This document shows positions 4,791 through 56,800 of a stretch of 64,000 nt of DNA, piece after piece. Below the pieces are notes generated by a model. That model made no database searches. It was not told the origin of the DNA and saw only the letters and a list, made by a program, of their open reading frames with translations. Position 1 is the first letter of the stretch, and the number at the start of each line of letters is the position of its first letter. Source of the DNA: Branchiostoma floridae (lineage: Eukaryota; Chordata; Leptocardii; Amphioxiformes; Branchiostomatidae); assembly GCF_000003815.2 (NCBI RefSeq), contig NC_049984.1:4466927-4530926 (forward strand). Direction: 5' to 3'. Made by a program: the position numbers and the translations under genes.

Positions 4791-5281
4791 CAGTAAACAA
4801 GTGGAGGTTTATTCTTAGAGTGGTCAGGGATGTCACCAACTTTACTATTGTCAGAAAAGAATATATCACATAACAAAAGGACATACAAGATATTCTTGTT
4901 ATCTAATATATTATATTGAACCCCACTAGAAGGCTTTGAAGTGGAGTTATGTATTCCTTTACCACTTTTACCTTTGATAGTGTTGGGAGAAAAGGATATG
5001 TCATAAACAAAAGGTGATACAGGATGTGTTAGTGTATCACCACACAAATCACACTTTGACATTATGGTATTACATGTACCAAATATTGACAACAATGTAT
5101 ATCCTTCTAGACATAATGTAAAAAGTCACTGCCCTCTGATATAATACAGTATACAATTTTCGGGCTTCAAAATTGTGCTTAAATTTGAGGAAAAATTTTC
5201 TAGATTGGAGAAAAGAATATTTAGCAAATTGTAACATTTTTGTCGAACAGTCTTCTTCGTTTCACAACCTCTTTTTTATTC

Positions 5282-5328
5282 TTCTGCAGACGTTTCGGTG
5301 ACTGTCTGTCACCTTCATCAGTGCAAAA
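5282..5328 (-). ncRNA. Hammerhead ribozyme motif, PLE left arm (sense to the ORF)
   Basis: Exact inverted copy of the motif at 6266-6312. CTGATGA reads on the minus strand from 5321 to 5315. It lies downstream of the GIY-YIG stop in the same sense, the usual place of a PLE ribozyme. Confidence 0.85.
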
Positions 5329-5435
5329 TGAAATATACTAACGTTACTCGGTGCGATATGACCTATACAGTGCAAATCGAACTAAACCTATTGTGACGTA
5401 ATTACTTGACATGGAATGTTCTCGAACGTGATACG

Positions 5436-5975
5436 TTAATCATCCTTGCCACTTTGTGACGTAGTGGCAAGGATGCGGTCCCAAACATGGCTAAGTTTAT
5501 ACCCCCCTTCGTCTCTATTCATTACTGCTGTAGACTTTCTGATCCAGATGGCTTCCTTTACCCAACGTGTGTATTTGTTGTCCTCTCTGTCAATAACCTT
5601 AGCCCCCTCCCAATCTATTACACAGTTATTTCTTGCAATGTGGTCTGTCACCGCTGACTTGTTTTCTTCTTTCTCTGCTTCTTTCTTCTGCGCCCTGGTG
5701 TACTTTCTTCCTTCAACATTTGTTGCTTCCTTTCTGTGTTCTGCTAATCTAGTGCCAAATGTTCTTCCCGTCTCTCCAATATATACTTTGCTACAACTTT
5801 TACATGGAATTTTATACACACAATCTGTTTTTACAGCGTCTTCTAATTTGTCTTTGGGGTGGACTAAAAGTCTCCTCAGGGTGGTTTTGGGTTTTACTGC
5901 TGTAGTGATCTTGTGCCGTCGGAATATTCTCTCTAGTGGCTCTGTAACTCCTTTTATGTATGGAAGTGTCACCAT
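5436..5975 (-). pseudogene. PLE polyprotein C-terminus with GIY-YIG endonuclease (fragment)
   Basis: The 179-codon open stretch begins with VTLPYIKGV, the segment that ends the RT region in Penelope-like proteins. It continues with the GIY-YIG module: VYKIPC (about 53-58), KVYIGETGR (63-71), RLAEHRK (75-81) and KEAIWIRK with the metal-binding Glu (about 131). Upstream sequence in the same frame soon runs into the inverted arm, so the RT is absent and the copy is dead. GIY-YIG nicks target DNA for PLE insertion. The plus-strand open frame at 5446-6192 is its shadow. Confidence 0.88.
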
Positions 5976-6265
5976 GCCTGGACTTTTCTTCTTGTTTCTT
6001 TTTCTCTGTATTCTTCGGCTTTTGTCCCATCGTCTGTTGTGCGACTCGTTTGAAGGCCCACTCGAGGGCCTTCAAAGAGAGACGAAGGGGGGTATAAACT
6101 TAGCCATGTTTGGGACCGCATCCTTGCCACTACGTCACAAAGTGGCAAGGATGATTAACGTATCACGTTCGAGAACATTCCATGTCAAGTAATTACGTCA
6201 CAATAGGTTTAGTTCGATTTGCACTGTATAGGTCATATCGCACCGAGTAACGTTAGTATATTTCA

Positions 6266-6312
6266 TTTTGCACTGATGAAGGTGACAGACAGTCACCGAA
6301 ACGTCTGCAGAA
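6266..6312 (+). ncRNA. Hammerhead ribozyme motif, PLE right arm
   Basis: Core CTGATGA at 6273-6279 and GAAA at 6298-6301, with a five-base-pair-plus stem II closed by GGTGAC/GTCACC around an AGACA loop. Helix III is the minimal A-C-G-T pairing and the cleavable GTC ends at 6305. Helix I is TTTTGCA with TGCAGAA (seven pairs, one G-T). All core bases are present. PLE hammerheads with minimal helix III are known to be active mainly as dimers. Confidence 0.85.
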
Positions 6313-6910
6313 GAATAAAAAAGAGGTTGTGAAACGAAGAAGACTGTTCGATTGATCTACCAACCTGATGAAACTATTTACGGATGTAACATTTTTGGCT
6401 TAAGTGGTTCAGGTATCATGAATTACACATTATTTTATTCTAAAATAATAAACAATTCAAGAATGTCCAGCTCCAATTTTTCCTGTACTACTTGGGTATT
6501 TGAGTCCCAATGTTTTAGCATGTATGCAGTACTCCCAGAACACATAAAACAGATGGTCACTTTCCTTCCAATTCCAGTATGATGCGAATAGAAGTGAGTG
6601 CAACAGCATTTCCTAATGGAAGTGGCACATTTGCCTGCCAGATCTCATTTCGTTCTGTAGTTTATTTTAGAGGAATGCATCAGGAGTTATATATGGTACA
6701 ATGCACCCGTGTGTAGTGAATACAAACCTATTCTAGAGTTACACATGTAGATGGAGCTACCTGTTTCTAGTTTGTGAATAGCTACATCTTGTTATAAGAG
6801 ATGCAACCAACATGCTGTTCAAAACTGGATTTGTCTAAAGCGCTGTCTGTTGACAACATACATGTATGGGTTGTCTTGCTAGCTCATCTTGAGGTCTTAG
6901 CAACACGTAC

Positions 6911-7252: not shown

Positions 7253-7511
7253 CCTACCCACATACCAAGTATCAAGACAATCCTATCAATATAGTATACA
7301 CATTCTGGAGTTATATTATCCACAGACAGACAGACAGACAGACACATAGTACATGAATGCTGCCAACAATATTAAACCTTCTTAGTCAAAGGTGATTAGC
7401 AAAGGGGTATTTAATTGGTTGTTACTGGGGATGTAATTGTTGTTTTTAATGGGTATAGATGTAACAAATTGGTTGGTTGCGTCGATGTAGGTTAGACATC
7501 CAGGTAATAAG

Positions 7512-7651
7512 ATATGCCAAAAAGCAGTTACTCAAGCAACTGGATATGATTTTGAACACAGTGTCACTGACGAAAGATGGTGGATACCATCTGAAACGTC
7601 TGACCGTTTCCAAAATCATATCCAGTTGCTTGAGTAACTGCTTTTTGGCAA
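7512..7651 (+). mobile_element. Foldback element of PLE type with 40-bp perfect arms
   Basis: The arm at 7513-7553 (TGCCAAAAAGCAGTTACTCA at its start) is repeated inverted at 7612-7651. A hammerhead motif sits in the loop. The sequence just outside the left arm reads CTGGATGTCTAACC on the minus strand, a tail shared with the other PLE-like copies of this window. Confidence 0.75.
7563..7604 (+). ncRNA. Hammerhead ribozyme motif in foldback element
   Basis: CTGACGA at 7567-7573 fits the CTGANGA core. Stem II is AGATGG/CCATCT, GAAA is at 7593-7596 and GTC ends at 7600. Helix I is GTCA/TGAC. All invariant bases are present. Confidence 0.8.
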
Positions 7652-7652
7652 A

Positions 7653-9069
7653 TTGTTTGGTTGCAGCTTTCACAAGCAGTGATAATACATGGCAGTTATT
7701 GCTGTGCGCTATTAAAACCAGCGGGGCAGAGATGGTGATAAATTGCAACATTCCTCTTCCATAGTTTCCAACTGTTTTAATACAGGGCAGGTTTGTCTTT
7801 TTCTGGCAGCCGAACATACAGGTTTCCTTCAGGGGATGATTTAAATCATAAGATAGAGACACCCCATGTAGAAACCAATGGGGATTACTTGAAGTAATTC
7901 ATAAGCTATATATTAGAAATAGCCTTTTCTTACACGTTTTATGTTCTCTTGCCAAATTGTTATGTTGGATGAGTGTTGAAAACAGGAAGTCCTGTATTTA
8001 TGTAGCAGTTATATTTATGGTTTCTGAGCACTGTAGGATAACCTCTATCAACTTCTATCCGCTGGTTACATAATTCTGTACAAAATTCTTTGCAAAACAG
8101 TGTGTTTGAAAGATCTCCAATGTAATATTGAGATTTTCTGACCTCTTTGTCATAATTGAAAGGTAGAGTTTATTTCCTATTGATACATGTACCTCTACTT
8201 GCAATTTGTAATACAGTTCCTAGTACCTTTGCTTTTCTTCCAACTCATTATTGGAAAGAAAAAGTTACCATTTTTTCATTGTTAGCCTGATTAAACTGCA
8301 CTTATACTTATATAGCAGCCTGTCCAACATTCAGCCGGTCTATCTGCAAGGAGGGCCCAGTTACACCCCCAGAGAGTTTGTGTTTGTAACACAGACTATT
8401 TCATTGTCAAATGCTGTGAGGTACTTACCAAAGTATAAGTACGATCGGTGCGTATATTTTGTGCACAGTATCATCACAATAAGGTTGGACAGTGCAACTG
8501 GACACTGCCCTGTCCATGATACTGAAATAGCCATCCAAGTTGTGAACATGAACATGTTATCTTAGCATGGTGTGGCAAGCAGCTAGGTGTGAGCATTGTA
8601 AGGGGTGTGGGTTCATCCTACCCCTGAAAAGTCTAAAATTTGTAGCTCTCTGAAATTTCAGCATTTTTCGGTCAAATTTAATGAAATAACGTCAATAATA
8701 TTTACCTTTGTTACAAAACAACAGAAAAGAACCCTGTGCTGGTTGAACACAGCATACATGTAGGGCCCAAAATCAAAATCAAGGGGTATAGAGGCCTTCC
8801 TGCTGATACCAAAAAAAATGTGTTCACCACTAGAGAGAGACATAGAAATGTAGAACAGACCAAAATAACCCGCGTGTCATTCTTCTGCTCCTAAATTACT
8901 GCAATTAGAGTCACGTCATGGCAAAGATTGCAGTGTTGGAGTAAGATTTTTGCCCATCTGAAGTGTGTTTGAAAGCAATTTTCTGTCCTTTTCCTTGATA
9001 CATGATTACAACCCACACAGAATGTGTAGGCTGTAGAACCTACATTATGATGACAATTGAAGGGTACAG
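7653..9069. other. Non-coding stretch
   Basis: No gene recognised. A segment at 8306-8400 (CAGCCTGTCCAACATTCAGC) is related to 38536-38635 and is a minor interspersed repeat. Confidence 0.45.
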
Positions 9070-9248
9070 TGTTAGAAATACCCACTTGCACACTAGCTTG
9101 CAAATGAAACCACATTTTGCTTGGCACAGTTTTTCTCCCACCTACGTGCATAAGCTTTTGTATTTATTCCTTGATGAGGTAAAACATAAGTAGTTACATG
9201 TAACTGGAAGAAAAGATAATGGATAAGTAGCTGTTTTGAAGAAAGTAA
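9070..9248. mobile_element. hAT-like MITE, truncated copy related to B
   Basis: Begins GAAATACCCACTTGC and follows copy B through CATAAGCTTTTGTATTTATT and GGATAAGTAGCTG; the right end is missing. Confidence 0.6.
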
Positions 9249-9330
9249 TAGCCTCACAGATTCTAACGGAGAAAGTATGATACACGTTTTAGTCTCACTA
9301 CAGAAAGTGCTCTAAGAACAGATATACCTA

Positions 9331-9908
9331 CGAGGGGCGTGCAATTAGTAATGGTCCTGACCCATTGCCCATAGCATGAGATTAATGAAACTTGGCACAG
9401 TTATTAGTCTTTCTCTTCATAGGAATCACCCAGAGTTATGCATTTCTCCCATCGTTTGATGCAGCTCTGGACACCGATTTTGTAGGACACCCCAGGTTGG
9501 TCCTCCAACTGATGCCTCATCAATGGCACAAGAGGGACGACCAGGTCTGGGAGCTGTTTCCACAGACTTCCAGCCACGTTTGAATTCAGGATGCCAGCGT
9601 TTTACAAGGTCATATGATGGGGCATCATCACCATAAGTTTCATTTATTTCATCAAAAGTCTTCTTTGGTGTGCGTCCTTTCAAATACAAAAACCGGATCA
9701 CTGCGCGACACTCAACTGGTTCCATTTCACACCTGGTCCATTTCGCACCTGACTAAGTTCAAACACCAGTAAATCAGAAACCACAATTAGTTCAGAGCTG
9801 TCTTTTGCAACATAACCCATAGAGATATGAATTATTACACATACAAAATTTCATTTAGATCAGACAACTGGAAGTGGGTCAGGACCATTACTTATTGCAC
9901 GCCCCTCG
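9331..9908 (-). mobile_element. Internally deleted mariner element with TA target site
   Basis: Terminal inverted repeats start CGAGGGGCGTGCAATTAGTA on the left and mirror this on the right, with TA at 9329-9330 and 9909-9910. Length is 578 bases against about 1.3 kb for a full mariner. The two ends of a transposase gene are joined without the middle. Confidence 0.9.
9426..9725 (-). pseudogene. Mariner transposase remnant (N-terminal HTH fused to C-terminal tail)
   Basis: Starts with MEPVECRAVIRFLYLKGRTP and continues through DAPSYDLVKRW and EFKRG, the paired HTH found in mariner/SETMAR-type transposases. After PGRPSCAIDE the match stops and the DDE catalytic region is missing. In another frame the end reads like the RWEKCI tail of mariner transposases, so an internal deletion joined both ends out of frame. 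Confidence 0.85.
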
Positions 9909-11092: not shown

Positions 11093-14000
11093 GTAATATC
11101 ATTGAGTGGTGTAAGCCGGAGGACAGTGACCTCGATGGAGTGGAGTTCAAGGCCATGGCGAGCGGATCCCACACAATACTTAAGGACTTCATGTAAGTAA
11201 CCATCCAATGTCTCCTAATGTTACCTATTAAGAAAGAAAAATAGTTAATCTTCTACTGTTTTATATAGTGTTGTCCACTGTTGTCAAAATCTTAATATTT
11301 GATGTTTCTGCTGTGACCTACATGTGTGTTTGTATTCATTCTTAACTTAAACCACCACAAAAATCCTTGTTCTGTCTTCTGCCCACCTACCCCCTTGTTT
11401 GAATGGCAAATTACAAACTGTTGTGAACACTTAATTGTTTCCTACAGCAAGATGAGATTGCCATGAACTTAAAGGCACTTTACAGTATTTTGTTACAGTA
11501 GTTTTTACAATGTCATTGTTATTTTCACAGTTACTTCAAGAAGGATAACCTGTACGGCCTGAGCTGTTTTGAGAACATGCCGGTGGAGAGCGAACTTGAA
11601 CGTGGAGCCAGGATGAAGTCTGTGGGCATCCTGGCCACTTCTTACACCTCTCTCTACAGACACATGCAGTTCCTGGAGAACCAAGTCAGGTAGGTGGCGC
11701 TACTGCACACTTACACCTCTCTCTACAGACACATGCGGTTCCTCGAGAATAAGTCAGGTAGGTGGCGCTACTGCACATTTGATATTTGTACAGTCAAACC
11801 TTCCAAGAAGGGGACCAAGACTATCTCGTGGTCACCTATAGATAGGATTCTTCAAGTTTGTGTCAATGGAAATATTATCTAGGGGACCACCAAAATGTGG
11901 TCACATTTGTCAGGCGGTCCTTAGTTATACATGTATATCGTCACTTGTACAGGTTTGACTGTATTAGGACAGTTTTAGAATGTGGTTATGTCAAAGTGCC
12001 ATGATGTATTGCATTGGTCCATGTGCTTAATGTAAACAAGTCAGGATTAAGTTCAGATAGACACATGATTAATCCTTTCATGTTAGATATGCTATTCTGT
12101 CACTTTTGAAAAATTGTTTGTTTCATGCAACATTTGTGAGCAATTTCTGATTTTGCTCCAGCCATTGTCTCTGGGAAGAAAAAAGGTGGAGAGAGCTTGT
12201 TCTTGTATCATTTCGTTTGTGATTTCAAAAGCAACAATTCCTTTGAAACCCCAGTTCACATGAGACCCAGCCCCCTTCTTGTGTGAAGAGAATGGCTACT
12301 CGATTTCTGTGATAATTTCAAAAGCAACAATTCCTTTGAAACTCCTCAAGGTACACACAAGACAATGTCCCCTTCTTGTGTGCAGAGAATGACAACTAGA
12401 TGGCCTGCCTTTGATCTATATGCAACAAGGCACAACATCAGACCCAGAGGGACAGTTGCAAATGTTGCTTACAACATCAAGGCCAGTGGGTCCACCTACC
12501 CACTTTGCTCCAGGCATTGATCGTGTTCTGTAAGGAGGGACAGTGGGGAAGCTTGCCTATAAATCATACACCTCCACATCTGCCTGCACCTAAGGCCATA
12601 CCAATTTAGTTTGTTGGTTCACAAATTTTTTTAACTGGAAAACTGGAAAAAGACACTATGAAAACAGAAAAGAAACCAGTAGGACCAGGTTTATGCCTTG
12701 ATGCACTCAGTTTTATGGATTGAATACAGTCACATCCAAGTATTCCTCCCTGCCCCATGCTTATATGATGTCCGGTTGCTACATTTTAATTCTTAAAAAT
12801 CTGAGAACCAAGGAAATCAATTTGTATGGCCTAATGTTCTGGTTTACAGTTCAGGCATGGTTCTATCTGCTGATAAGATTGTGGGACTTGAGTGAAGGAA
12901 CTAGAACTATCCCATATGTTCGTGAATAGTTTCATCAGGTTCCTTACAACTTGTTTGTTACGTCAGTTCTCTGTGAGTTGACGAGTGAAAAATGTTCAGG
13001 TCAATACCTTTGTTGCAACTGTGTAAATTGAATATATTTTCTTTCATTTTTTTTCTGAACAACAGACATCAACTGGAGACTCCAGGGAGGTACGAGCAAC
13101 TCCGAGCATTCTGGGAAGACCGGAAAGGCTCCCTCCCCATGAGTAACCCTGGCCGCAGTCTACTGTCTCCGATGACTGAGATCCCTCGGGCCGACATGAG
13201 GGTGAGTAGAGCACATGTGTGGCGATGTAGGAACACCCCTATGTAATACTTTAGATGCATTGAAGTTCCCTGAGATTTAATTTTGCTGTAGTGGGAAAAA
13301 GGACTTTTCGCAGTGGTTTTAAGTTTGCGGTAGCACCATGCAATGTAGTCTCTTACTGCCGTGGAAAAATGTTAACAGTGTTTTTAAGTTTGCAGTGAAG
13401 CGGCCACCGCAAAAGCCGCGAACATCAAACCACCGCAAAAGTTTCTGCATTTACAGTAATGGTATGGTCTAGGCACACGCGCAGGCATGCTGGTCACTAG
13501 TGCCAAGGAATAAACAACAGAAGTAACGTCCCTGATATCTGCCGGCTTCTTGCTGTGCTTACGTCGTCTGATCGTAGTTTTAGAATGATTGAGAACTGAC
13601 ATGAGGGTGAGTAAAGCACAGGCAGGATTAACACTGGCACAGTTGAGCGTAGGGGCCCCCATGCTGTGATATGTATCCCCAATGCTGTGATTTGGTCTTC
13701 CATGGTGTGTTTCAACCAGGGGGATTTTCAGTTGGTTTGTACCAAAGGTGGAAAATTTTCACTTTATTTCATTGAATTTGGCCCTCAAGCCAACATTAAG
13801 GTGAGTAGAGGACAGGCAGTGTTATCACTAGTGCAGTTGAGTGTGGGGGCTCCCATACTGTGACTTGTATCCACTATGCTGTGATTTGGGCCTTTATGCT
13901 GTGTTTTGACCAGCTAAGGGAGATTTTCAGCTGTTTTGTTCCAAGGGTAAAAAATTTTCACTTACTTTCATTAATGCAGAAAATAGTGTTTCTGAGAGTT

Positions 14001-17000
14001 TAAGATTTAAAACTTTTCAGGGGGAGGATCCTTGCCACAAGGCTTTGCCACTGTAAGATGCCCACTGCGCAAAACCATCCTAGTCAGAAACACTGACATG
14101 CTAACTGCTAGTTTTCAACTAATCCGAACAGACTGTACAATCATGTTATCTATATATCTATCTAAATGAGGACATTTGTACATGTTGAAAGGGAAGATTC
14201 TAGTGCATCTACAGTCAAACCTGCCCAAGAATACCACCCAGAAGACAGATAAAATCTAGTTGTCACTGTTGACAGGATTTGTAAGGCTTACGTCAGTCTT
14301 AGTTCCTGAGAAAAGAGTAGTTCCTGAGAAAAATGACACGAAGAAGAAGAAGAAGAAGTTCCTGAGAGCTGCAGGTCACTACTTGTTTACATGTAGTTTT
14401 GAGGTTTCTGCAATACAAACAAGTTAGAATCTTATCAAGATTTTGAAATGTACAGTAGTAGTTTGAAAACTAATGTAGAAACGAACTACATTATCTCATT
14501 ACCATTCTGTAAAGTCTCACTTAGAACTTTTCCCCCACAGATAACCCATCCTGCCGGCTGCTTTTCCCAGTTCCTGAAGTTCTTCGGTGAGCAGATCTTC
14601 GTCCTGTGGAAGTATGCCCTGCTCAGGAGAAGGATTCTGTTCTTCTCACCTCCCCCCATCGGTGTGGTGTGCTACAGAGGTTTGTTTGTTTGTTTGTTTA
14701 TTTTGCACATAAAAACAATAACAAAAAGTAAAGTGATTAAAAGTCCTGTTCTTCTTACCTCCTCCCATCGGCGTGGTGTGTTACAGAGGTAGGGAAACAC
14801 ACTTTGTACAATCGCAGGTCTACGCAGCACTTAGTCTAGAGGCTTTGCCTGAAGATCAACCTAGGAAACAACTGACAAAGCGGCAATGCCTTATGCCAGC
14901 TTTCTTCCATGGTTGGATCAATGGACGGACCTTTTAACCCAGCCCTTCCAAAGCCCCTTTCAAAGGCCCTTTGTTATTTTGGGTATACAAACAGTTTTAG
15001 TAATACAGACAGAGACCAAACTGAAAACCATCATAATATAAGAAGAAACAACTCATGAATGGAAACAAAGAAAAAGAATGTGCCATTCCACCCGAGGCAG
15101 ACTTGCACCCGCCCACCCTTCTGCCAAGAAACGACACATCAAAGCAAACTGGAAATTATAAAGAGGACTAGAGAGTAGAAGGAGAACACCATAGTGAAGG
15201 ACTGACCACACATACTGAACATCTAACAGACAATCCACCAATAGCAAAGACAGACTGTAGCACCAAACAAAGACTACTACGACAAGGACTCTAAAAACGT
15301 AGAACCAAAACTCCCGTCCGCACACTTGCCCATTTAACAGATTGGCACCACTCAGCCAAGAAACTTTCAGAACCAAGTCGAACAAACTCCATCTTGAGTT
15401 TAAACCTAAGAGCCTCCTTGATTAGAGACACCAGCTCAATGTGAGATACGAAATTATTGTCAAAGAGAGCCTGACACCTGGACCACCAAATCTTAGACCG
15501 AGCGACGGCCAAAATGTAGGTGCAGACATCTCTCTTACACTTCTTCAGGGTAGACGACATAACACCATAGAGAGCGACCGCGCGAGAAACACGAAAACTA
15601 GAGACCACCCATCGCCTAATGAACCCTTCGACCCAAGTCCAGGTCAGGAGCACCTCGCCACAAGACCAGATGGCATGGGTAACGGTCTCCGTAGCTCTAC
15701 AGTTTCTCCTCGGACAAAGAGGGGAAGGAGTTCTGTGCCAAATCGAACAAGTCAAGTAGTTGGTTTTGAGAGCCCCATGTGCGACCTTCCAGGAAAGCTC
15801 CTTTAGGTTATTCTCAAGGAGAGTGTTATGCACCGTTGAAAAAACAAGTGACCAATCAACACCCCGCTCTAAAAAACAAGCGGAAGGGGTATGAGAACGA
15901 GCTAAAATGGCAGCTTTGTACAAAGACTGCACGGTGCATATCCTGTCCCAAGTCTTCGAAGCAGAAGCATTAACAAACTCCAAGGTGAGCTTCCGCATCA
16001 AAGAATAGTGAGGTGGAGCCTCAGGAGAGTGGGGGGAACTGTTAGACCACGATGATGGTTCAAAACAACGGGCAAAAAAACCCAGCCAATATTTTGCCAA
16101 CTGGACCCATGGAAGATCCGGCCGGTCAAGAATATTGGTAAACGGCCGACAATAAAAACAATTGGCCTTCACTCCAAAATCAATGAGATCCCATCCACCT
16201 TTGTCCAAAGGTAGCAAAACTGTCTGTCTAGAGACCAGTTCTGCACGATAACTCCAGAAAAACTTAAAGACGGCTCTCGTAATGTCCTTGACGACTGACT
16301 CGGGAGGAGAAAATACAGGAGCAATATACCACAAAGTAGATAAAGCAAGGTTATTAACGACGACAACCTTGCCAGCGAAGGATAAAGAGAAGCTGTCCCA
16401 CCTTCGCAGAACCGCTTCAAACTTAGCTTGCCTCTCCCTCCAGTTGACTAAAGGCATATTAACACTTCCAAAAGTACCTCCCAATAAACGTATGGATACA
16501 GATGTCCATTTAAAATTCTTCGGACAATCGAGTCTTTTCCTCCAACTACCTAGCCAGAGACCCATACATTTGTCAAGATTTAAAAGAGACCCGGAACCTC
16601 TGTTATACATGTCAATAACAGCAAAGAGCCGGCGGATCGACTCATCGGTTGTAACAATAGCCGAGTTATCGTCCGCATACTGCGAGATCTTAACTTCACG
16701 GCCACCAGGCAACCTGAGGCCGTGAATCGCAGCGTCGGCCCTTACTGTAGCGGCAAATGGCTCCAAAGAAATTGCGTACAGCAGGGGTGACATAGGGCAC
16801 CCCTGCCGAACACCTCTTGAGAGAGAAAAAGAAGATGATAGCGACCCATTGACGAGAACAGCACTGGTAATGTTGTGGTACAATATAGCAACCCATTTGC
16901 GGAAAACCGGGCCAAAACCCATCTTCGTAAGAGTCAAGTGAAGAAAATCAATATTCACTCTATCAAAGGCCTTGGCCTGATCCAGAGAAATGATCGCACA

Positions 17001-20000
17001 GTCAAAGTTATTCATATTAACATATGTAATGATATCTCTCATCAAAAGTAGGTTACATTGTATCGACCGGCCTGGTATACCGCATGTCTGGTCAGGACTG
17101 ATGACCGAGGCGGCAACCATCTTAAGCCTATTGTTAAGGACCTTTGCAAGAATCTTATAATCGCAATTTAACAAAGAGATGGGGCGACGGTTCTTCGGGT
17201 CCAGAGGGTCCCCTTTTTTTGGAAGGAGAGTAATAACACCAAAACTCTGGCTCTGAGAGAGCTCGCCAGAAGAAAAAACTTCCTCAAAAACTGAGAGGAG
17301 ATCCCCGGCAATGACGTCCCAGAAAGCGACATAAAATTCCTTCGGGAGACCGTCACTGCCAGGGGACTTATTATTCTCCATACTGCACAATGCAGCCCAA
17401 AGCTCATCCAATGAAAGAGGACCTTCTAATGAAGAGACTTCATCAGGATCCAAAGACCCTTCTAAATTGTTACAAAGGTTATTCGCCTCACACTTATCAA
17501 TAGGCTCAGCACTAAAAAGGTCTTCATAAAATAGCTTAAAAACGTCTAAAATCTCCTCGTCATCTTGGACAACACGTCCAGTAGAATCTCTGACCGAAGA
17601 AATGCGTCGCTGCCTACTTCGGGAAGAGGCCTGGCTTACAAAATACGAGGTACATTTTTCCCCCTCGACAAATTGCTTGACTCTGGACCGAACAAAAGCA
17701 CCGCGAGCCTCCTCAGCGGACAACTCGGACAAGGAAGACTTAGTACATTCATACCTACGCAAGATGTCCGCCGAAGAGGCCCCGTCGTTCATCTTGTTGG
17801 TGAGATCGACAAGTTCATTATTCAAGGTAAACATGGACTCCCGTCTCTCCCTAGCCAGTTCACAAGAAATTCTGATCAGGAGAGAGCGAGTTCTAGCCTT
17901 TACATCATCCCACCAGGCTCGCAAAGAAGGAAAACCTGGTTTCAAAGTCTTCCAATTGTTAAAAGCGAGTTTAAAATCATTTAAAACTTTGTCTCTTTTT
18001 AAAATCGAGACATTACATTTCCACAAGCCAGGCTTCTTCTTCACATCCGGTAAAATTGACAAGGACACACAGTCATGGTCTGTAAAATATGCGGGTAAAA
18101 AACAGTAGTTTGAAACGACGAGGCATTTAGACGAATAAAATCGGTCCAGCCGACAGGCAATACCTTTGGTCGGCTGTCTCCAAGTGAAGACCTTTTTAGA
18201 AGGATTCTCATGTCTCCAAGAGTCATGCACATTAAAATCGGCGCAAATGTCTTTTAAAACGGTGGAACCGCCACTACCATGAGCCGGGTTCCCGCCCCTC
18301 TTATCAATATCAACATCTTCAACGCAGTTAAAATCACCGCACAAAATAAGGGGCTCAGCCCCCGACAGAAACTTATACAAATTTTTAAAAAATCCAGTAC
18401 GCTCCGCAGAAATGTTAGGAGCATACATGTTACAAACTTTGAAATTACGCGCACCATCGGACAAGACGACACAGACAACACGCCCACTGTCGTCACAAGA
18501 CTTTTTAACCACATCAAAATTGAAAGATGGAGAGAGTAAAATACCCACACCTCTAGATTGGGAGGAGCCCAATGCCCAAAACGCTTGGCCTCCCCATTCC
18601 TTCTCCCAGAGCACCGCTTCAGATGTTGACGAAACATGGCACTCTTGGAGGCAAACAACGTCAAATTTATGTTGACGGCAAAAGCCGAAAACCTGCCTCC
18701 TCTTCTGCGGACTACGGAGCCCACAGACATTGAGTGTAGCAATAAGAACCATGAGGCTACATAGAGAAGGAATGTCAAACAACATCGGAATGTGAGGAAT
18801 TAGTGGTACAGATCATCAATTCCTTCCACACCAATTCGGTTAACAAATTGGGGGTGGACATTGTAGAGGTGCTTGAGACATAACATGGTGGTTTTAAAAA
18901 ACCTCGAACAATTACCAACCTTACAAGGCACAACGTCCCCGGAGATGCCATGCGCCTTTGCAAGGTGAGATTTCAAAGACCTAAAACTATGCAAGAGTTC
19001 GTCACAACCATGAGAAATAAACTGGTTGCACACAAAGACAGCCTTATTCTTGTACAAGTCAGAGGAGATGACAATGGCTCTCGCCTTTGCTACCAAATCG
19101 GGACTTGGAGCCTGAGAGGCATCCGAAGTATCCTCATCAATGATGAGGCTTCTGGAGCCAACAGTAGAGTCAGACTCGTTACCGTCCACAGAACGAAGAC
19201 TCTCCGAGGGAAACTCCTCGATAACAAGACTGGAGTCGGAATCCGGCTCCTTACGAATCTTTTTTCCTTTCGACAAAGTCTTTGCAGAGGCAGAACCCTC
19301 ACTGGAATCCCCCCTACACCTTTTCCTGGAATCTTTGTCAGCAATATCAGAGTTGCCATCATGGCAGCTCTGACAAAGAAAGAGGCGATTATCGCTTTGA
19401 CAAACTGGGCCCTCACAGAAAGCAAGGAGAGCAGATTCTGGAGTTATGTCTGCCTTGCACTGATGACAAGACACCACCTCCAGAGTGATTGTGTAATCCA
19501 ACTCACAACCCTGACACATGTACCGACGAGTAACAGGTCGGATAGGACTGGCCGCTTTACGCCTCCTTCTCTGGGACCGGGCGCGAGGGGCCGGTACCGG
19601 AGCAGCAGATGTTGAGGGTACCTGCTCGCTAGAAGAGGAAGAAAGGCCAGGCTTAGCCAGAGAAGGAGCGGCCTCCGACAGCAAGTCCTCAGACGGCTCA
19701 ACCACCGCGACCGGAGAAAACTTGGTCAGAGAAGGAGCGGCCTCCGACAGCACGTCCTCAGACGGCTCAACCACCGCGACCGTAGGAGAAACCTCCGGCT
19801 CCGCGACCGGAGAAGAAACATCCGACTTCACAGCCGAAGAAGTACCCGGGTCCACACTGCCAGGGTGACCTGGAGGCGAAACAGGATCAGATACACCAGA
19901 CTCTGCGTCAGAAACATGGGCCAGTTCCGACCGATCAGTCTTATTTACAGCCTGAGGAACCCGTCCATCATGATGTTCACGGACCTGACTCACACCTGCC

Positions 20001-23000
20001 GGGAGCTCTTGGCTCTTAGCCCAACTGGCTCCCATCTTAATCCTGTTTGCGAAGGACAGGGGACAACGGCGGGCCGTATGTCCCTCTGCCCTGCAACTGA
20101 GGCACACAACATCGTTGGTACAATCCATGGCCAAATGCCCAATGGATTGGCATTTGTTGCAAAATGTTACTGCACAATTTGCCGACTCATGGCCTTCCTG
20201 GTTGCATCTCAAGCAGGTACGGGGCTGCCCCACATACCTGAAGAAAACCATCCTCCCGTCATACATTTTCCATGCTGATGGGATATTGCATCCCGGCTTT
20301 AAAACTACTTTGTATTGCCGGTTCCCATTTTTGATGGTCGGTCTGTCCCCGTATGTTACCATACGGGACGTGATGACGGCACAGTATTGATTTAACCAGT
20401 TCCTGACATAGTTGTCATCGAGCTCATACGGAATTCTTGTGGCCGTGACAATTATCTCCGCCGCCGCGTAAGATGACACATCCACGGCGTCTAAACCAGA
20501 CAGTTTCCCCGCATACAATGTACGCTCGTGTACCGAGGAAAATGACACGTCGAATGAGTTTGGTCCCAGAGACTGAACAGCCTGAATGCTGCTCATGGGA
20601 GCCGAAACCTCGCTCAGCAAAGTAAACACTTGTTCATACGTTAACCGATCACGGTACACGGCAACTTTTATTGAAAGAGGACGCTTCATAATGCAGCTTT
20701 AACTAGAACCAAATAAAACTAAAAAGGAACCAAAATATGAGCAGACAGAGCTGCCAGAGACCCTGAAAAACACTACCTGTAAATCAGACAGCCTCCACGG
20801 ACTCCACGGGCAGCAAGGGTTGAAAACGTAACGTAACTGAAGGCGTGTAACCAAACTGACACGCTTAAAGAACAACCAAGTACGAACCAATAAACTAGGC
20901 AGCCTCTCCGGGCGCTACTGGTTCTCAAACTAAATTGCTAAATTTGCCAAGGAGCAAGCCCAAGTGGAAATTTCCACTCAGACAAAATGGACACCACTGT
21001 CTGTCTCAACCCTTGAAATGCAAAACAGAGCAGCGTCCTACAATGGATGACCTCTGCCCCCTCTCAGCCCAGTCTATATAATGGGCGGGGGACAGCAGAA
21101 ACTACAATGCTGCAACTAGATTTTGCAGCTGCGAAACAGGGCGAACGCCCCACAATGGATGGACCACCTCTGCCCCTCTCAGCCCAGTCAACGCAATGGG
21201 CGGGGGGCAGAAGTAAACCACAATGCTGCAACTAGATTCTGCAGTTTTAGATCAACTCATTAAAGCCCAGAGTTCAACCGACTTGCAAACCAATAGATCA
21301 ACTCATCAAAGCCCAGAGTTCGACCGACTTTCGAACCACATACTTACGGGCAAAAACACATTGTCACAATAACGTGATCAACGTGCCGAGTTTCATGGCT
21401 TAGTTAGACAATGGTACATTCCAGGCGAGTATTAAAACGCTCTTCTAGACGCATGTTACTGTATGTGGTCCAGCGTAATAAATCTACGCTTTAACTCACC
21501 ATGTTTATATAAAGATATATCACAAATTGCATCAGAAGGAACTTATTTTGTAATGAAAAATAATGCATATTCATTGTGGGTCAAAAAGTTTTACAAAACC
21601 TGTTTAATGTGCCAATAATTCATGTGACATAAATTATGATAATGAGGTAAATTTCCAATATCCCCTTTTGCTGCATTTCCTACTGAAGAAGCTAGGTGTC
21701 GCTCTCAGCAGTTCAGTCATAAAATACGCGGCAATGCACAGCTTTTCTTAAAAGATTTCTTGTTTAATCCCAAACGAAGGAGAAAACTGTTGCAATGGAT
21801 AGGCAATATATAGTTGAGGGCATCTAACAGATACAGTATTGGGGCATCTGTATCTCAATTTTATAGTGTATGGTATTGATAGCAAATCTATTATTAATTG
21901 GTTGTTATGTATTATAGCAGTAGAATGTTCAGCACCAAGGACAGCAATAGTTGTGGACCAACATTCAGTAACAAAGACAGTATTTGTTTTTAACATCATT
22001 AATTATAGTACTAAGAACAGTGATAGCTTTGTAAGCACATATCAATAGAATTGGGCAAGCAAAAGTGGTACTACATGCTTTTAGAGCCCTGGAGATGAGA
22101 AAGGCGCCTCCAGGGGACTAAAATGCCTATTGATACAGCATAGCATGTTGTACTGCCCCTACAGCTGATTAATAGATAATGAGCAATGGGATGATGTTGG
22201 TGATGATGGTTTTAGAGGATAAAGGTTTAAGGTAAAGCTATAACCTGAAGTTTAATCTATTGTGCGCTTGAAGTTTAATTTATTGTGCAGTTCAGATGGA
22301 TAACCTCCCAAATCAATTAAGACTGGTAAAAGTATAATGCTGCATTACATGTAAGTGTTTGATGCTAATTCAATTTTTGGTCAATTTTCCTGAGCCACTA
22401 TCTTTATCCTCACTGGCAAATCTATTTGACTTCGATCTCTGCTGGCATTGATTGTAAGAGGTTTGAATTATGTAATACTTTAAGCCCAACATGCCCATTC
22501 TTCTCATACATATGTTTCCTTACATTCGAGTTTAATCAAAGTTCTGTTATTCTTGTATGGTACACATTTGATTACTGAAGTTAGTGTGATTTCTGATGTT
22601 TGTCCATTGGGTGTCGATTAGGACCTTAGAAATGTGATTTCTAATCAACTTTTTTAATGTAAGATTAACTATTTTGCTAGCAATCTCATGACTTAAGTGC
22701 TGGTCATGTGGATGCATCCTTATGTTGATAACTTTAACATGTCTTAATATACTTAGAATATTGTTATTGTTATTCTGTCCATATATTGGTATTCTGTCCA
22801 TGCTGAAACTTTAATCACATTTGTATTGTCTTTGTCCAGCAGGGCTAGCCCTTTGTTATAGCCACTGGTTAGGCAACCCTGGCTGTGCATGCTGAACAGC
22901 CAAATAGACAATGGTTTATTCAGATGTTTTGTAGAGAAATCCCACATTGCAGCCAAGGGCACTTTACACAATCGGTAAAATCTGGTAACCATGGATAAAA

Positions 23001-47800: not shown

Positions 47801-49546
47801 CTTATGGTAAATCCGTCAATTTCGGTGGAGCGAGCCTTCCATATCTGACCCCAGGTGATATTTAAGCTATATCTATTGCGAGATTTGTCACAGGAAAAGA
47901 AAGTCAGACAGGTACGTCTAGAAATGGTTTCATGGCAAGAACTCACATAAGTCCGATAATCGTTGTCTCAAGCTACTCTCCAAGCAGAGGTTCGGCTCCG
48001 GCTGTGTTTTTTTATGTGTATTCAGGCGTTTTTATCGGGCTTTTTCGTATTTTGTTACCGTTTTCTTCGGCGTTTGGCCGCGAGACCTATAAAGAAAACG
48101 GTACAAAATAGAAAGCCCGATAAAAACGTTTAAATACACATAAAAACAGCCAGAGCCGAAACTCTGCTTGGAGAGTAGTCTCTTGATCTCTTGATCTTCT
48201 TGATCTTGATTGAGTACTGGACAACGCCCCTCAGTTGGGGCAAAGCGTCCAGGGGGAGTGCTGCGCCTTAATGTCCCCTGAGGCGTCGGAGAACTGCCTC
48301 CTTGAACTTTGGAGCGTCTGTGATCTCCGTGACCTCGTATGGTAGAGAGTTCCAATCTCTCACGGTTTGTGGGAAGAAGGAATGTTTGTAGCAGTCTTTG
48401 TGAAAAGGTAGAGCCTTGTAAGAATTTGGGTTTGAGTGTCGCGATTGGCGCGGTACAGGCTTTAGATGAGATTCGACCGGTAGGGCTACTTTATGGTGTC
48501 TTGCTTTCTGTAAAATTGTTAATCTATTTGCTGTCCTTCTGTTGCGTAAAGTATCCCACCCCAAATCAGAGACAAGTTTGGTGACACTATCATAACTATG
48601 ATACGAATTTGTGACAAATCTGGCCGCTCTTTTTTGAACGGACTCTAACTTAGCATCTTAGCAATGTGCTCTTTGTGGTATGGATCCCAGGCAGCGCTGG
48701 AATACTCTAAATGTGGTCTAACAAGGGATGTATATGCATTTGTTTTGACTGATTTGGGGCAGTTATAAAGATTGCGTCTCACAAAGCCTAACGTCTTGTT
48801 AGCCTTGGAAGCACTGTACTGTATGTGTTGTGACCAAGAGAGCTGGTTGTTGAGCGTGACTCCTAAGTATTTGTGGTTGTTAGTCTCGGCTAGAACATGA
48901 CTTCCTAGTTTGTAGTCGTAGAGTTTAGGTTTACGTTTGTGGGTATAACGCATAACAAAACATTTGTCCGGGTGTAATTTCATCTGCCATGTGTTTTGCC
49001 ATGTATCTAATGTATTGATGTCCTCTTGTAAGAGGGTGTGATCTCTGTCACTGTTTATCTCCCTGTAAATGACGCAGTCATCCGCAAAGAGACGGATGTT
49101 AGAGTTGAGGTTGTCGGCTAAGTCATTAATGTACACTAAGAACAGTAGTGGTCCGAGCACGGTACCCTGGGGCACTCCAGAGACTACCTCTGCCCACTCT
49201 GAGTGCTCTCCCCCAACTACCACTCTTTGTTTACGATTTTTGAGGAAATTAGAGATCCAGTGAAGTACCTTACCCCTAATACCATAATTTTGGAGTTTTA
49301 GGAGTAAGCGTAGTCTCAAGTTTCAAATGCCCAAATCAACCATTAACAAGGAATTCATTGCTATTGTTAAATCCCGTTTTTCGTGCAGTGGTAGGAGAAT
49401 AATATAACGGGCAGCCAAAAGGATACGGCTTGCATTTTTCGTGCACTTATAACTCTTGTTTGTTTCTGCAGCGCAAGAAGAACGAGAACCAGCTGTGTTG
49501 GCTGCTGAGGAAAGTCCGTCGGGATGGTTCACACGAAGTCAAGTGA
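41829..49546 (+). CDS. Phosphoethanolamine N-methyltransferase, MT1-type domain, 6 exons
   Basis: Exons: 41829-42060, 45126-45312, 45710-45865, 46089-46225, 46752-46891 and 49472-49546 (TGA). They total 927 nt, 308 residues, all GT-AG with matching phases. Exons 2-6 form one class I SAM methyltransferase domain: motif [13 protein letters not shown] (split across exons 2 and 3), the AVDF acid, [44 protein letters not shown] and a C-terminal [14 protein letters not shown]. These match the first (MT1) domain of plant and nematode PEAMT/PMT enzymes, which methylates phosphoethanolamine toward phosphocholine. There is no second (MT2) domain here. Exon 1 adds 77 residues starting with a hydrophobic stretch (about residues 7-24) like a signal peptide or anchor, unusual for this cytosolic family. 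A second candidate first exon lies at 44155-44188. The catalytic part is secure; which first exon is used is not. Confidence 0.88.
42800..42964. mobile_element. Palindromic MITE, copy 2
   Basis: Ends TACTCTTCAAGCAGAGGTT and CCTCTGCTTGGAGGGGAGTA. Inside is a smaller hairpin on TTTTTCTGTCA. It lies in intron 1 of the methyltransferase gene. Confidence 0.65.
44155..44188 (+). CDS. Candidate alternative first exon of the methyltransferase
   Basis: ATG followed by ten acidic or polar codons ([11 protein letters not shown]) and one base, then a G|GTAGGT donor. It ends in the same phase as exon 1 at 42060, so it joins exon 45126 in frame and would give a short cytosolic N-terminus typical of PEAMT proteins. 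The upstream 100 bases hold CpG dinucleotides but no TATA box that I can see. This is inferred from phase and context; no transcript was available. Confidence 0.5.
45397..45530. mobile_element. Partial copy of the same MITE
   Basis: Contains ACGTCTCATTTCCAAACTGG, then GTTTGTGGAAACGAAAAATA and TACGTCTTGTGTT, all shared with 39880-40062 in the opposite internal orientation. The far end is missing. It lies in methyltransferase intron 2, just after a tRNA-like stretch at 45334-45392. Confidence 0.55.
46297..46765 (+). repeat. Intronic tandem repeat carrying copies of the exon-5 acceptor
   Basis: About six units of 76-113 bases, each with a GGTTGTAACAGGGAATAAGA-like core near 46310, 46423, 46508, 46595, 46671 and 46751. 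The last is the real acceptor and start of methyltransferase exon 5. The other cores keep or lose the AG. Confidence 0.8.
47973..48178. mobile_element. Palindromic MITE, copy 3
   Basis: Ends CTACTCTCCAAGCAGAGGTT and CTCTGCTTGGAGAGTAG. Almost the whole element is one hairpin, with CGTTTTTATCGGGC and GCCCGATAAAAACG arms. It abuts the 3' tail of the CR1-like LINE. Confidence 0.75.
48181..49330 (-). mobile_element. 5'-truncated CR1/jockey-like LINE fragment
   Basis: The RT 3' half and the C-terminal domain are present on the minus strand, followed by a TCAAGA-type simple tail at 48181-48215 that marks the 3' end. The sequence begins mid-RT at about 49320. It lies in the last intron of the methyltransferase gene, antisense. 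Confidence 0.88.
48268..49319 (-). pseudogene. CR1/jockey-like reverse transcriptase remnant with frameshift
   Basis: The first part (49319-48645) reads [32 protein letters not shown], the active site [11 protein letters not shown] and [13 protein letters not shown], all typical of jockey/CR1 RT fingers, palm and thumb. A frameshift near 48650 moves the match to another frame, where it continues to [10 protein letters not shown] and a stop at 48268. The endonuclease and N-terminal RT are missing. Not functional. Confidence 0.88.
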
Positions 49547-52500: not shown

Positions 52501-53836
52501 CTTGCTTCTTTCGGCAATCGGTATATGAACTTTCTACATATCAAAGCTTGCAAAATTGATTCCTTGAATTTCACAGCTTGCCACTTCATGACAAGAAAAA
52601 AAGAAAGCGTTTGCGCATGGAAGGTACTCTGTTTTGAGACAATCCTCCATCTTCATGAGTAGAATCTACCTCCGCACTGATCAATTTTTGGAAGATTTTT
52701 AATAGAGTGCAATAAAGGCCATGCTGTGCGAATATCTATCCATATGATCACTACAAAATAGTGCTTACACTTTTATCTATCTTTACTTTAGCATGGAAGC
52801 TTATCAAATTTAGATATCTACAGTGTGCTTCTTCAAAGTAGCAAGCTTGTTACATGCGTTTTTATGCTGCAAACTGTTTTTCTGATTTCATCAAACTGTT
52901 ATTCAGTCCTCCTATGGTTAGTTCAGTGAGTGGTCTTCAGAAAATCAGATACATTGATTCAATATCATGCTAGTGCATGTGAATGTTCTTAGCATTTGTG
53001 TTTGCTTTGGGATATCTAACATGCTGCTATGCTACTTCTGCAATCTAATGATAGTAATGTTAGGAAGTGGTCAGTATCATTACGATTCACGAGAATCTAC
53101 CATCATGCATTATCAAACTGCAGATAGACTGATAGTCAAAGGACAAAGATATTTCCTAAATCACTGGAATAGATATGATTACAACATTCCTATTTGTAAA
53201 ATATGTTATATAATCATAGAGGCATTGCTAACCCTAGCTCTCTACAAATGTACCTTCAATGAAATGCAGTACCTTCAAAATACAGTACCTTCAATGAAAT
53301 GTTTGTAGGCCCAAAATTCATGCTTTATTTCTACTGCCACTCCATGTATATGTCCTTGATCATTGGTTAAACCATTTTTGCTTTCAGCAAATTTATAGCA
53401 TAACATACTCAGAAACACCTTAACTAAAGGCAAAACTGGCGGGATGGCATCAACATTCTTTAAGGCAAACACTTCAAGCAAAAGTACCTAAGCACAGAGG
53501 GCTATACAGCCTGAGGTATAATAGGTGTAGTACATTTATCAGTGTTCTCGCGAGGCCTTTTTCAGCATAGGGGGCCCCTACGCTGTAATTTGGATCCCCT
53601 ATGCTGTGATTTAGGCTCCTACGCTGTTGTTTTGTAACAAAGGTTTTTTTCCTGGTGAGAACACTGTTTATCTATGATGTACATGTACAAACTACACACT
53701 CAACTCCATCACAGTAGCTTTACAGTCATCAAACCATACTTTCAACACAGAGTCACCAATGTGGTAACTTTTTACGTCATACATAAGCATTAATTAGTCT
53801 GTACAAACCAGCCGTAGCCTCTCACAGAAAGTCGGC
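49547..53836. other. Intergenic stretch and UTRs
   Basis: Holds the methyltransferase 3' UTR, one interspersed repeat (50584-50683) and probably the CDYL 3' UTR. A block at 53545-53660 with CCCTATGCTGTGATTTAGG is related to 13650-13990. No gene recognised. Confidence 0.45.
50584..50683 (+). repeat. Interspersed repeat, GGCTGCCCAACTAGCC family
   Basis: Starts TTATTGGTTTGGCTGCACCG and ends with a CAATACA run. Over 80 percent of positions agree by eye with 57707-57812. Confidence 0.65.
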
Positions 53837-56800
53837 TTAGCTGGATAGTCCTTCCCTGTCCACGTAAGACTTGATCTTTCGGAAACATTCCTTGTCCTCC
53901 CAACGTTCTCTGAGCATGTCACACTCGGCCTCATTGGTTGCCAGAAGCTTGGCTTTGTGTTGCTGCCTTAGCAAGGCCTTGGACATGGCAAGTGCCTGGG
54001 AAAAAAAATCAAACATCAGTGAATAGGTTCATCAAGTTGATGAGTCACAGGATAATGTATCCTTTGTTCACAACCAAGTGGTTTTAACGTTGATGAATGT
54101 CAGACATCAAGGTAAAAAGATACGCCAAATAGCCTTTACTCAAGCAAATGGATTTGATTTTGGAAATGGTCAGACGTTTCAGGTAGCATCCAATACCTTT
54201 TGTCAGTGACACTCTGGGGAACTGTTGACAAGCTGCTGTAGTGGCAAGTGGTAAGTCATGAACCTGTAAGTCATTTGTTTCTTCAGAGGATGTAGTTTAC
54301 ATCTTATACAACTTATACTTGTATACTTTTCAAATGCTAAACTATAGTACAATTTTTCTACTGGGACTATCCACAGTAGCTACTTGATGAAGCAGCTGTA
54401 AGATTGAACACTTAGATGTAAATACCTTAGCAGAACAGGTTGTCATTTTGAGCACTCTTGGGATGACCTCCCCCATAAGGCTGGTCGGCCAGAAGACTTG
54501 TGAGACCAGTCCTTTGCTGTAAGCCTCTGATGCTGTTAGTCTTCGGCCAGCCAGCAAGACATCACTGGACTGAAACATGACATCAACCGTCACATATAGC
54601 CTCCTTTGCAAACTTCTGGCGAGGCTGGCTTTTATTTTATGGGGTGGGGGAGTGGTTCAACTTTGACTAAGGTTCTTAAATGCTAGGGAAAAAGTCTGCC
54701 GTGGAAAAGAGTTTCGCCCCGCTCTAGTGGCTTCAACAGACTTACAGTTTCACTGAGTACACTTTCATACAAAATTGCCATTGAAAGTGCACTCTTTGGA
54801 AGATCAGTTGTAGATATACAAAAACAACTTGCAACAGTGCTTAAATCTTCACACAATCTAACAGTCGAAATCCTATAGCATAGGATAGGGCTACTCATAA
54901 AAGACGTTGTATCTGCAGCAATGTTGAAAATACTAATTTGCCTCTGAATTTACAAGACATAGATTTGAACTATACATCAGGCCAAGTTGATTTGATTATA
55001 TCGATAACGTCCACACTCGCATCAATTTCTATCTGCTTCCAAAGATTTCATACTGAAGGCAACCTTTTTTCACACCAAACTTTTTTTATTCCAGCTTGCA
55101 ACAATTTTGGAGTTCCCAGAGATTGTCATCCATACAATCATCATGGCCTTAGTAATAAGTTACAGGAATGTCAATGAACTGCTCACCAGTGCTGTGCCCA
55201 GCACCAGCGGGAAGGTGTAGGAGGAGCACCCTTCTGGCGTCTGTCCAATCTGCATGTATGGCATCTGGAACACAGCCTTGTCGCTGGCATACACAATGTC
55301 ACACAGGCCGAGAAGCGCCGCCCCGAAGCCAAATGCAAAACCGTTGACGGCTGCCACAATCGGCTTGGAGAATTCAATCAGCGCCTCCACCAGCTCCCTG
55401 CAAGAGACAGTCAACAACCCTGCAGTTAGGAGGATATGTGAGCCTGGACTGGCAATGTGCAGGAGCCATTAGCTGGTAATGGACACACTATACCAGTACA
55501 CAAACGCTCATGTAATCAAGACTTCTCTGTTTTTGTTCAGTCACAGTGCAGGCAATTTCGACTACCATTTCAGGCAAACATACAAATTCACCATGGCTTT
55601 TAAGCTGTCAGATCAGACAGAAATATGACACCCATGCATTATGTAACTAGGTATAGTTGAAATGCACTATTCTCTAGTTCTATGGTACTTTGTCAATCCA
55701 CGAACAGAATACAAAATACAGTAATATGCTTTGTGGCTCAATGGTGCATCTTGGCCTTCCTTGCACAAATATCTCACCACTTTTAAGAGCTCAAATATCT
55801 TATGACTTGGTGAAATTTTATCCTGTGCCTTGTTTGACTGTAGTTCATAGTTCTACCTCAACAAATTTTACCAACTCTGAACTGTTCTTCCTGTCTCTCA
55901 GCATGTCTGACCCTTGCAGTTATCTTCCTACTCACTTCATGCCAATCTATTGACAGCGGATTCAACTAATTACAAACACCAAAAAAAAAAAAAAAACAGA
56001 CTCCATACACAGGCTATAAGGGGAAGGCAAAGCCTAAAACAACGAAAATGAGCTATTTGTTACCTCAAAGGTTCAGCCAGCTCAGCTGCAGCTCTTCTCC
56101 TCCTCTGGAAGCCCTGGGTTGCCAGGTAGGTGATGTCTATCCCCGCACAGAAGATGCTTCCCGATCCGCTCAGAAGCAGCAGCTTACTGTCGTCGTCATC
56201 TTCTATCTCGTTTAAGGCATTGGTCAATTCTTTCATACCCTGGAGAGCAGATGGGAAAGTCCTACAATCAGATTTGCTGCCCATTGTCAACACGATTTTG
56301 TGCTCAAGAAGAAAAGAGACAATCCTTCTAGCTATTGGAGGGGCCTAATTACCATCTATTTTTATCAGTGTGGCACATACAATTATGCCTATCTCAACGT
56401 CTGTGAAAAATGGAGGTTGCGTTTTAGACATTTGTCTGTGTGTCAATCAACAAGATAACTCAAGAATGGTTTTCTTATCTGCTTTGTCTTTGGTACTGCA
56501 GCAGACCATATGGTTTTGATACTACTACAAATCGACTGACTCTAAAAAAACAATAACTCTATGCTAGCTATCAAAGGACAATCGTGGACACCCACTCAGA
56601 ACTGTTACCACTTTAACTGAAACTGTGTTATGTGCCTTATATTTATAAAAGTTACATATCATAATGTTTCTGGCTAGTACACTTATGCTTTCATTTTATG
56701 TCTAATGTTTTCCCAAGAGACTCTTCGGAGTCCATCAATCTTTATCATTTGATGGAATTTCCGGAGGCTAATGACAAAAAAATTAAGGCCACTTTGCCAT

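Follow-up and report, generated by a model that had tools for sequence, protein, structure and literature searches.

Ten hammerhead ribozyme motifs are spread over a 64,000-nucleotide (nt) stretch of the Branchiostoma floridae genome (contig NC_049984.1, positions 4,466,927 to 4,530,926), here called the window and numbered from its first letter. They are very probably minimal type I hammerheads of Penelope-like elements (PLEs), carried by about six insertions that come from at least two PLE lineages. The copies are scars, in which we observe the motifs with their pairing, foldbacks, duplication-like flanks, end positions, and remnants of open reading frames (ORFs); from these we infer cleavage, action as dimers, the use of two start sites for complementary DNA (cDNA), and two-ended priming. 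Both the ribozyme and the element that carries it are of known kinds, and in this respect the occurrence is ordinary. The insertions nevertheless record how such a PLE copies itself, and they predict which arm of a foldback bears the tail; three foldbacks with duplication-like flanks let the ribozyme cut, the two presumed cDNA starts, and the junction be placed closely. We designate the insertions A to F (with units E1 to E3 in E) and the motifs on the two arms of A and B as A1/A2 and B1/B2.

Hammerhead motifs and their fold

The ten motifs are located as follows.

5289-5321, minus strand: motif A1 on the sense arm of A; intact core and CGTC; found by the descriptor and the covariance model
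6273-6305, plus strand: motif A2 on the inverted arm of A; same sequence as A1, intact core and CGTC
7567-7600, plus strand: motif D; intact core and CGTC; found by the descriptor and the covariance model
24070-24103, plus strand: motif C; core and CGTC intact; 4 bp of stem II followed by a mismatch
25069-25101, minus strand: motif B1 on the inverted arm of B; intact core and CGTC
25244-25276, plus strand: motif B2 on the sense arm of B; intact core and CGTC
27805-27772 (E1), 28058-28025 (E2), and 28293-28260 (E3), minus strand: motifs of array E; G at the cleavage position
54206-54173, minus strand: motif of F; G8 changed to A (CTGACAA), CGTC kept

The whole 64-kb window was searched with a strict descriptor requiring CTGANGA, four or more base pairs in stem II, and GAAA. 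This retrieved eight loci, at six of which CGTC follows directly. The arrangement CTGANGAA–stem II–GAAACGTC is retained at six loci and was seen in 0/200 shuffled windows; the strict descriptor itself averaged 0.135 matches (maximum of 2) over 200 dinucleotide shuffles, with CGTC in none of them. A looser scan gave 14 sites against a shuffle mean of 3.0 and maximum of 9 (60 shuffles). These comprise all ten loci listed in an earlier inspection of the letters alone (the sequence-only reading), each within a few bases of its given place, and four strays (3442, 46326, and 61320 on the plus strand and 19729 on the minus strand), which we discarded as no better than the shuffle level. The type I core (CUGANGA ... 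GAAA) together with a UH cleavage site is found at six of the ten loci, belonging to insertions A, B, C, and D, and the other four loci are decayed. This division also agrees with the sequence-only reading: the six loci said to keep CTGANGA, a paired stem II, GAAA, and CGTC are those recovered by the strict descriptor, and the four called mutated in the core or cleavage base are E1 to E3, with their G at the cleavage position, and F, with its altered G8.

A covariance model of 42 positions, built only from the equal-length loci C, D, E1, and F, recovers the other six, namely, E3 (E value, 1.2e-12), E2 (1.1e-9), A twice (3.6e-6), and B twice (2.8e-3). Only A and B test the model independently, since E2 and E3 are nearly the same as E1. 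The next of its 25 hits at an E value of ≤10 (60263-60304, minus strand; E value, 0.061) was rejected as an eleventh copy, as it has no hammerhead core and its flanks are unlike those of the known copies.

The sequence of stem II differs between loci with its pairing mostly kept, as the sequence-only reading had observed. MAFFT assigned the single-base length difference of A and B to the core. We therefore scripted the stem II count, keeping the gap in the loop, and confined the model to the four loci of equal length. Over six loci (A, B, C, D, E1, and F, with A1, B1, E2, and E3 excluded as duplicates), pairs 1 to 4 of stem II are standard in 24/24 cells, each with two or three Watson-Crick types, and pairs 5 and 6 in 10/12 cells, each with at least two such types; among the duplicate rows outside this count, E2 has one broken pair and E3 has one G-U. 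In the four-row alignment of C, D, E1, and F, both partners have changed in five of six stem II pairs and in one of four stem I pairs, counted on a structure drawn from these same four sequences; with the partners slid by 1 to 3 columns, double changes appear in 0 to 1 of all pairs. One of five covariation measures, that of further pair types, does not favor the structure (475/500 shuffles score as high). The first four pairs of stem I are paired in 13/16 cells of these rows (81.3%), with C having only two pairs there. With four to six sequences behind it, the compensatory change carries modest weight. It speaks for selection having acted on the mobile source elements and gives no argument for a role of the copies in the window, so that the earlier claim of past selection on the RNA fold can be retained for the former and not for the latter.

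In all six intact motifs, CGTC comes directly after GAAA, leaving no stem III loop, and an intramolecular stem III was not found. As stem III would consist of an A-U and a C-G pair without a loop, one molecule should hardly be able to close it; the ACGU sequence is self-complementary, so two molecules could pair with each other. Hammerheads of this minimal type I form are reportedly found at the ends of PLEs, in their thousands across animal genomes, and are said to cut as dimers, as credited to Cervera and De la Pena in 2014 and Lunse et al. in 2017. The motifs in the window are like them in the type I-like core, the presence of stem II and a putative stem I, the lack of a stem III loop, and the position at PLE ends. 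Two reviews likewise describe PLE hammerheads as minimal versions without helix III (PMC6155905 and PMC7761336), and the latter gives their function as unknown.

Foldback insertions and their end points

Insertions A, B, and D combine pseudo-long terminal repeats (pseudo-LTRs), an optional tail, and short flanking duplications, by which PLEs can be recognized; this combination was not found for C, E, and F. Their parts are as follows.

5243-6384, minus strand: insertion A, a foldback PLE copy; arms at 5243-5519 and 6075-6351, with 555 nt between
5230-5242 and 6385-6397, no strand: target site duplication of A; 13 bp, identical at 13/13, directly abutting both ends
5436-6071, minus strand: 3' part of a PLE ORF in A, with a GIY-YIG endonuclease-like region; open frame, not a complete ORF
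6049-6076, no strand: palindrome at the inner junction of A; 28 nt, with 11-nt arms and a 6-nt center, read from the sequence
24990-25333, plus strand: insertion B, a foldback PLE copy; arms at 25021-25128 and 25217-25324, with 88 nt between
25131-25238, plus strand: C terminus of the PLE ORF in B, up to the stop; matches the ORF end in A (35 nt of DNA, 88.6%)
7481-7648, plus strand: insertion D, a foldback; a single hammerhead together with the flank downstream of it, in both orientations; no ORF part seen

The arms of A form a 277-nt inverted repeat (276/277 by BLAST), those of B are complementary at 107/108 positions, and those of D (7512-7562 and 7603-7653) agree at 92%. In all three foldbacks, the tail is on the inverted arm and the sense arm is untailed: the tail of A (6352-6384, on the plus strand arm only) is homologous to that of B (24990-25020) over 27 nt at 92.6%, and that of D (7481-7516) lies on its left arm. 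We rejected the notion that the left arm of D ends exactly at the ribozyme cut, since its end lies about ten bases past it. Duplication-like repeats are also seen around B (24977-24989 and 25334-25346, 12/13), where an unexplained 9 nt (25325-25333) separate the end of the sense arm from the duplication, and around D (7465-7480 and 7649-7664, 15/16). Scores equal to those of A, B, and D occurred in 6, 16, and 6 of 600 random window pairs, respectively, in a control that used the full search windows and did not require a position beside the arms. The GIY-YIG-like reading frame in A and the same ORF C terminus in B speak for the PLE origin that the sequence-only reading had assigned to the motifs. 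Both copies are truncated at the 5' end, short of any reverse transcriptase (RT) region. A comparison of the GIY-YIG ORF with viral contigs for a PLE relative yielded eight stretches that fit a pattern, none of which was confirmed.

The ends of the three foldbacks fall at similar distances from the cleavage base: their sense arms stop 46, 48, and 48 nt past it in A, B, and D (57 in B if the 9 extra nt are counted), and their inverted arms stop 79, 79, and 84 nt past it. The similarity of F and C to the flank of D stops at 85 and 87 nt past the cut. This geometry resembles the two start sites of a PLE from the green anole, in which the ribozyme cuts 26 bp into the ORF and reverse transcription mainly starts 111 to 118 bp into it, i.e., 85 to 92 nt past the cut, and a tail of 30 to 40 bp corresponds to the stretch between the two start sites (PMC11167929). 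The ribozyme of a live element sits where the pseudo-LTR meets the start of the ORF. To cut, it would need a second ribozyme in a tandem transcript, with which it would pair through the loopless, self-complementary ACGU. Reverse transcription would then begin at one of two sites a fixed distance downstream of the cut, with the tail as the stretch between them. Both ends of insertions A, B, and D would have begun at such start sites, in opposite orientations, which would leave one arm of the foldback with a tail and the other without. The Poseidon element PAc of the green anole is similar in having its hammerhead at the pseudo-LTR/ORF junction, two end sites with the tail between, and comparable cut distances; unlike PAc, the copies in the window have no complete ORF. 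Hammerhead cleavage in the anole PLE required added protein and was dispensable for insertion (PMC11167929).

The RNA of B is predicted to fold as a duplex of its arms (−229.3 kcal/mol; z, −29.5), in which each ribozyme would be buried by pairing with its own complement; by extrapolation from B, the RNA of A would likely form the same duplex through its longer arms, and the whole RNA of either copy would then be expected not to cleave. In the predicted fold of D RNA, stem I is drawn out into a long hairpin with the single ribozyme at its tip (−83.9 kcal/mol; z, −11.9); among the foldbacks, only D might therefore cut. In short monomers, the predicted unconstrained fold, with core bases paired to the cleavage segment, beats the open-core fold by 2.4 (A), 7.1 (B), and 4.2 (D) kcal/mol; the difference for C is 3.0 kcal/mol, and its open-core fold is not a hammerhead. 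The motifs differ from the minimal hammerheads of PLEs in setting only, in that most of them belong to foldbacks or to truncated single copies, in which no direct tandem dimer can arise in cis.

Two accounts of the foldbacks have to be weighed. For rotifer Penelope elements, the published description reports pseudo-LTRs in inverted orientation, one of which may bear a tail, as well as palindromes at the junctions; it proposes self-priming as the cause and regards the origin of PLE inverted repeats as unsettled (PMC3846280). With these, the window copies share 5' truncation, inverted pseudo-LTRs, a tail on one of them (about 31 bp in rotifers), short flanking duplications, and a palindrome at an inverted junction; they differ in flanking repeats of 13 to 16 bp, versus 8 to 10 bp in the rotifer cases seen, and D, unlike the rotifer copies, has only the ribozyme and its flank, with no ORF. 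Self-priming, by which a single cDNA snaps back and copies itself in place of two cDNAs being made, is a plausible origin for the foldbacks in the window that falls just short of probable: the 28-nt palindrome at the inner junction of A is the very feature underlying the proposal in the rotifer account, but the inverted arm outruns the sense arm by the tail in all three foldbacks, and copying of the sense arm alone cannot yield a tail. For this reason, we tentatively propose priming at both ends, as a possibility about which doubt prevails. Under this proposal, the protein would cut both target strands, cDNA would be made from each end, starting at the far site with a tail and at the near site without one, and the two would be joined, with this polarity as a rule. 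The anole PLE protein does cut and extend both target strands, but its start sites show no apparent strand difference in vitro, which disfavors a strand rule (PMC11167929). Self-priming on an antisense template, as suggested in the rotifer study, is still compatible with the excess on the inverted arm (PMC3846280). Two-ended priming is not stated in the titles or abstract beginnings covered by a partial literature search. If it is correct, the two start sites would serve different jobs on the two target strands.

Single and tandem copies and the number of insertions

The remaining insertions comprise C, given above by its motif, and the following.

27751-28468, minus strand: array E; three tandem units at a spacing of 253 and 235 nt, with one hammerhead each
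54088-54216, minus strand: insertion F, with its hammerhead as listed above

C and F are single copies. Downstream of its motif, C is similar to the tail flank of D up to 24190 (73 nt, 75%), and F is similar to D in both its downstream flank and tail (93 nt, 85%, and 75 nt, 84%). E is one copy tripled by local duplication, apparently already mutated at the time. CGTC is kept in none of its three units, and E2 additionally has no GAAA and has lost one stem II pair. The G common to all three at the cleavage position implies, by parsimony, that E was probably mutated and dead before it was tripled. The array further repeats the start of a host exon: 28449-28484 equals 28690-28725 at 36/36 nt, a stretch that takes in the acceptor AG and 34 nt from the beginning of the exon at 28692; the other units have shorter pieces of the same exon start, at 27986-28005 (20/20 nt) and 28207-28239 (82% of 33 nt). 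Such pieces inside the array indicate a local genomic duplication. To judge from these changes, E and F are dead as ribozymes.

As the motifs at 5282/6266 and 25066/25241 are arm pairs of two foldbacks and those of E are a tandem trio, the ten motifs amount to about six insertions. A and B are 74 to 75% similar over 65 to 113 nt, with 89% similarity in a 35-nt stretch at the end of the ORF, and pairs among C, D, E, and F that are linked by BLAST are 75 to 87% similar; with the copies as queries, BLAST gave no link between A/B and C/D/E/F at an E value of ≤0.01. This suggests at least two PLE lineages, A/B and C/D/E/F. Several parts of the sequence-only reading have to be revised in this light. 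It had placed all motifs in one family, which the comparison divides into at least two lineages; it had counted many variants, a number raised by foldback arms and duplication; and it had seen steps of motif decay in the trio, whose shared G at the cleavage position is most simply older than the tandem duplication. Possible further remnants of PLE tails are two matches of the A tail on the minus strand, at 54004-54039 (36 nt, 81%) and 12921-12941 (21 nt, 95%), each with an E value of 2e-4 in a small search.

Several observations weigh against our assignment of the motifs to PLE hammerheads. The hammerhead models of Rfam gave no match in the window, either at the gathering score or at an E value of ≤10, or in 6200-6400, the one stretch that was searched by itself; the sequence-only reading had named this search as its check and the lack of a hit as grounds for giving up the claim, and formally that is the outcome. 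The scan was thus silent on ten copies of a PLE-type class, likely because their stem III has no loop, the form reported for PLEs. The ORF of A matches Pfam PF01541 with an E value of 6.4e-4 and 20.4 bits, which is 2.2 bits under the cutoff. A PLE RT was not found among the eight ORFs given to Pfam, with no PLE-specific RT search made of the window, and the two RT matches in that test belong to other ORFs that are like long interspersed nuclear elements (LINEs) by their domains. The best repeat scores around C, E, and F are 8, 9, and 7, versus 12, 10, and 13 for A, B, and D. Finally, the tails are not strikingly AC rich (A+C, 0.44 to 0.56) and fold weakly. From the silence of Rfam, the missing stem III, and the ability of short DNA palindromes to persist through copying errors, it could be argued that the motifs are products of chance or mere palindromes that were never ribozymes. 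We consider this very improbable, as the full motif is absent from all 200 shuffles, the unpaired CTGANGAA and GAAACGTC are the same in the four diverged insertions A to D while the stems differ, and both partners have changed in the stem I and stem II pairs (1/4 and 5/6) counted above. E could alternatively be taken for a retrozyme, a small nonautonomous tandem repeat from which circular RNA is set free by type I hammerheads. Its three tandem units of 235 to 253 nt, each with one type I-like hammerhead, are similar in size to metazoan retrozymes, whose repeats are put at about 150 to 450 bp (PMC7229834); the same report gives over 6000 type I hammerheads for a coral genome, of which 1508 are canonical and the rest PLE-like. 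Unlike the retrozymes described there, no unit of E has a usable cleavage base, with G in 3/3, and host exon sequence lies inside the array, which indicates local genomic duplication. We therefore reject this reading, which has hardly any likelihood left. It is also highly unlikely that a copy, such as B near a splice acceptor or D at a hairpin tip, has been co-opted by the host for the cleavage or regulation of an intron. B adjoins the exon start at 25366, ending 32 nt before it, with the right flanking repeat ending 19 nt before it, and the motif of D is intact and has a very long stem I; against this, the RNA of B is predicted to form its own arm duplex with both ribozymes buried, and E and F are without key bases.

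Host genes and other features of the window

The motifs had been placed in introns of two genes, which we can support for B and E in a DENND11-like gene (below the Pfam cutoff) and for F in a CDYL-like gene. The exon at 25366-25516 matches the end of the Pfam DENND11 model with 18.8 bits, below the cutoff of 27, and its final two bases continue in frame into the next exon, at 28692, as judged by eye; E lies between these exons, and B lies just upstream of the first. F shares its strand with the CDYL-like gene and lies between two of its exons: the ORF at 54342-54656 aligns with residues 162 to 215 of human CDYL (E value, 2.8e-10), 53898-53992 weakly matches the following stretch of CDYL (E value, 0.35) and an enoyl-CoA isomerase (E value, 0.07), and upstream ORFs have enoyl-CoA hydratase and chromo domains. 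The position of foldback B (24977-25366 region) directly upstream of a splice acceptor could, by the predicted fold, give rise to a very strong hairpin in the pre-mRNA.

Other mobile elements and repeats are also present. Two long adjoining frames at 15291-20698 on the minus strand (1173 and 632 amino acids) combine a zinc knuckle, an endonuclease, and an RT in what is a fresh-looking LINE-type retrotransposon; an RT fragment at 48645-49322 (minus strand) belongs to another retrotransposon. At 9426-9752, again on the minus strand, an open frame has the helix-turn-helix domain of a Mos1-type (mariner) transposase (E value, 1.3e-10). The Rfam scan also returned matches to mir-4875 and to TA-repeat microRNAs, which are other hairpins and were set aside as not hammerheads. 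A long imperfect palindrome at 47973-48178 resembles a miniature inverted-repeat transposable element, and mir-4875 scores 55.8 and 54.9 bits on its two strands, with a gathering score of 90. A 21-bp tandem repeat at 38812-38951 has 5.5 perfect copies and, on each strand, more than one frame without a stop.

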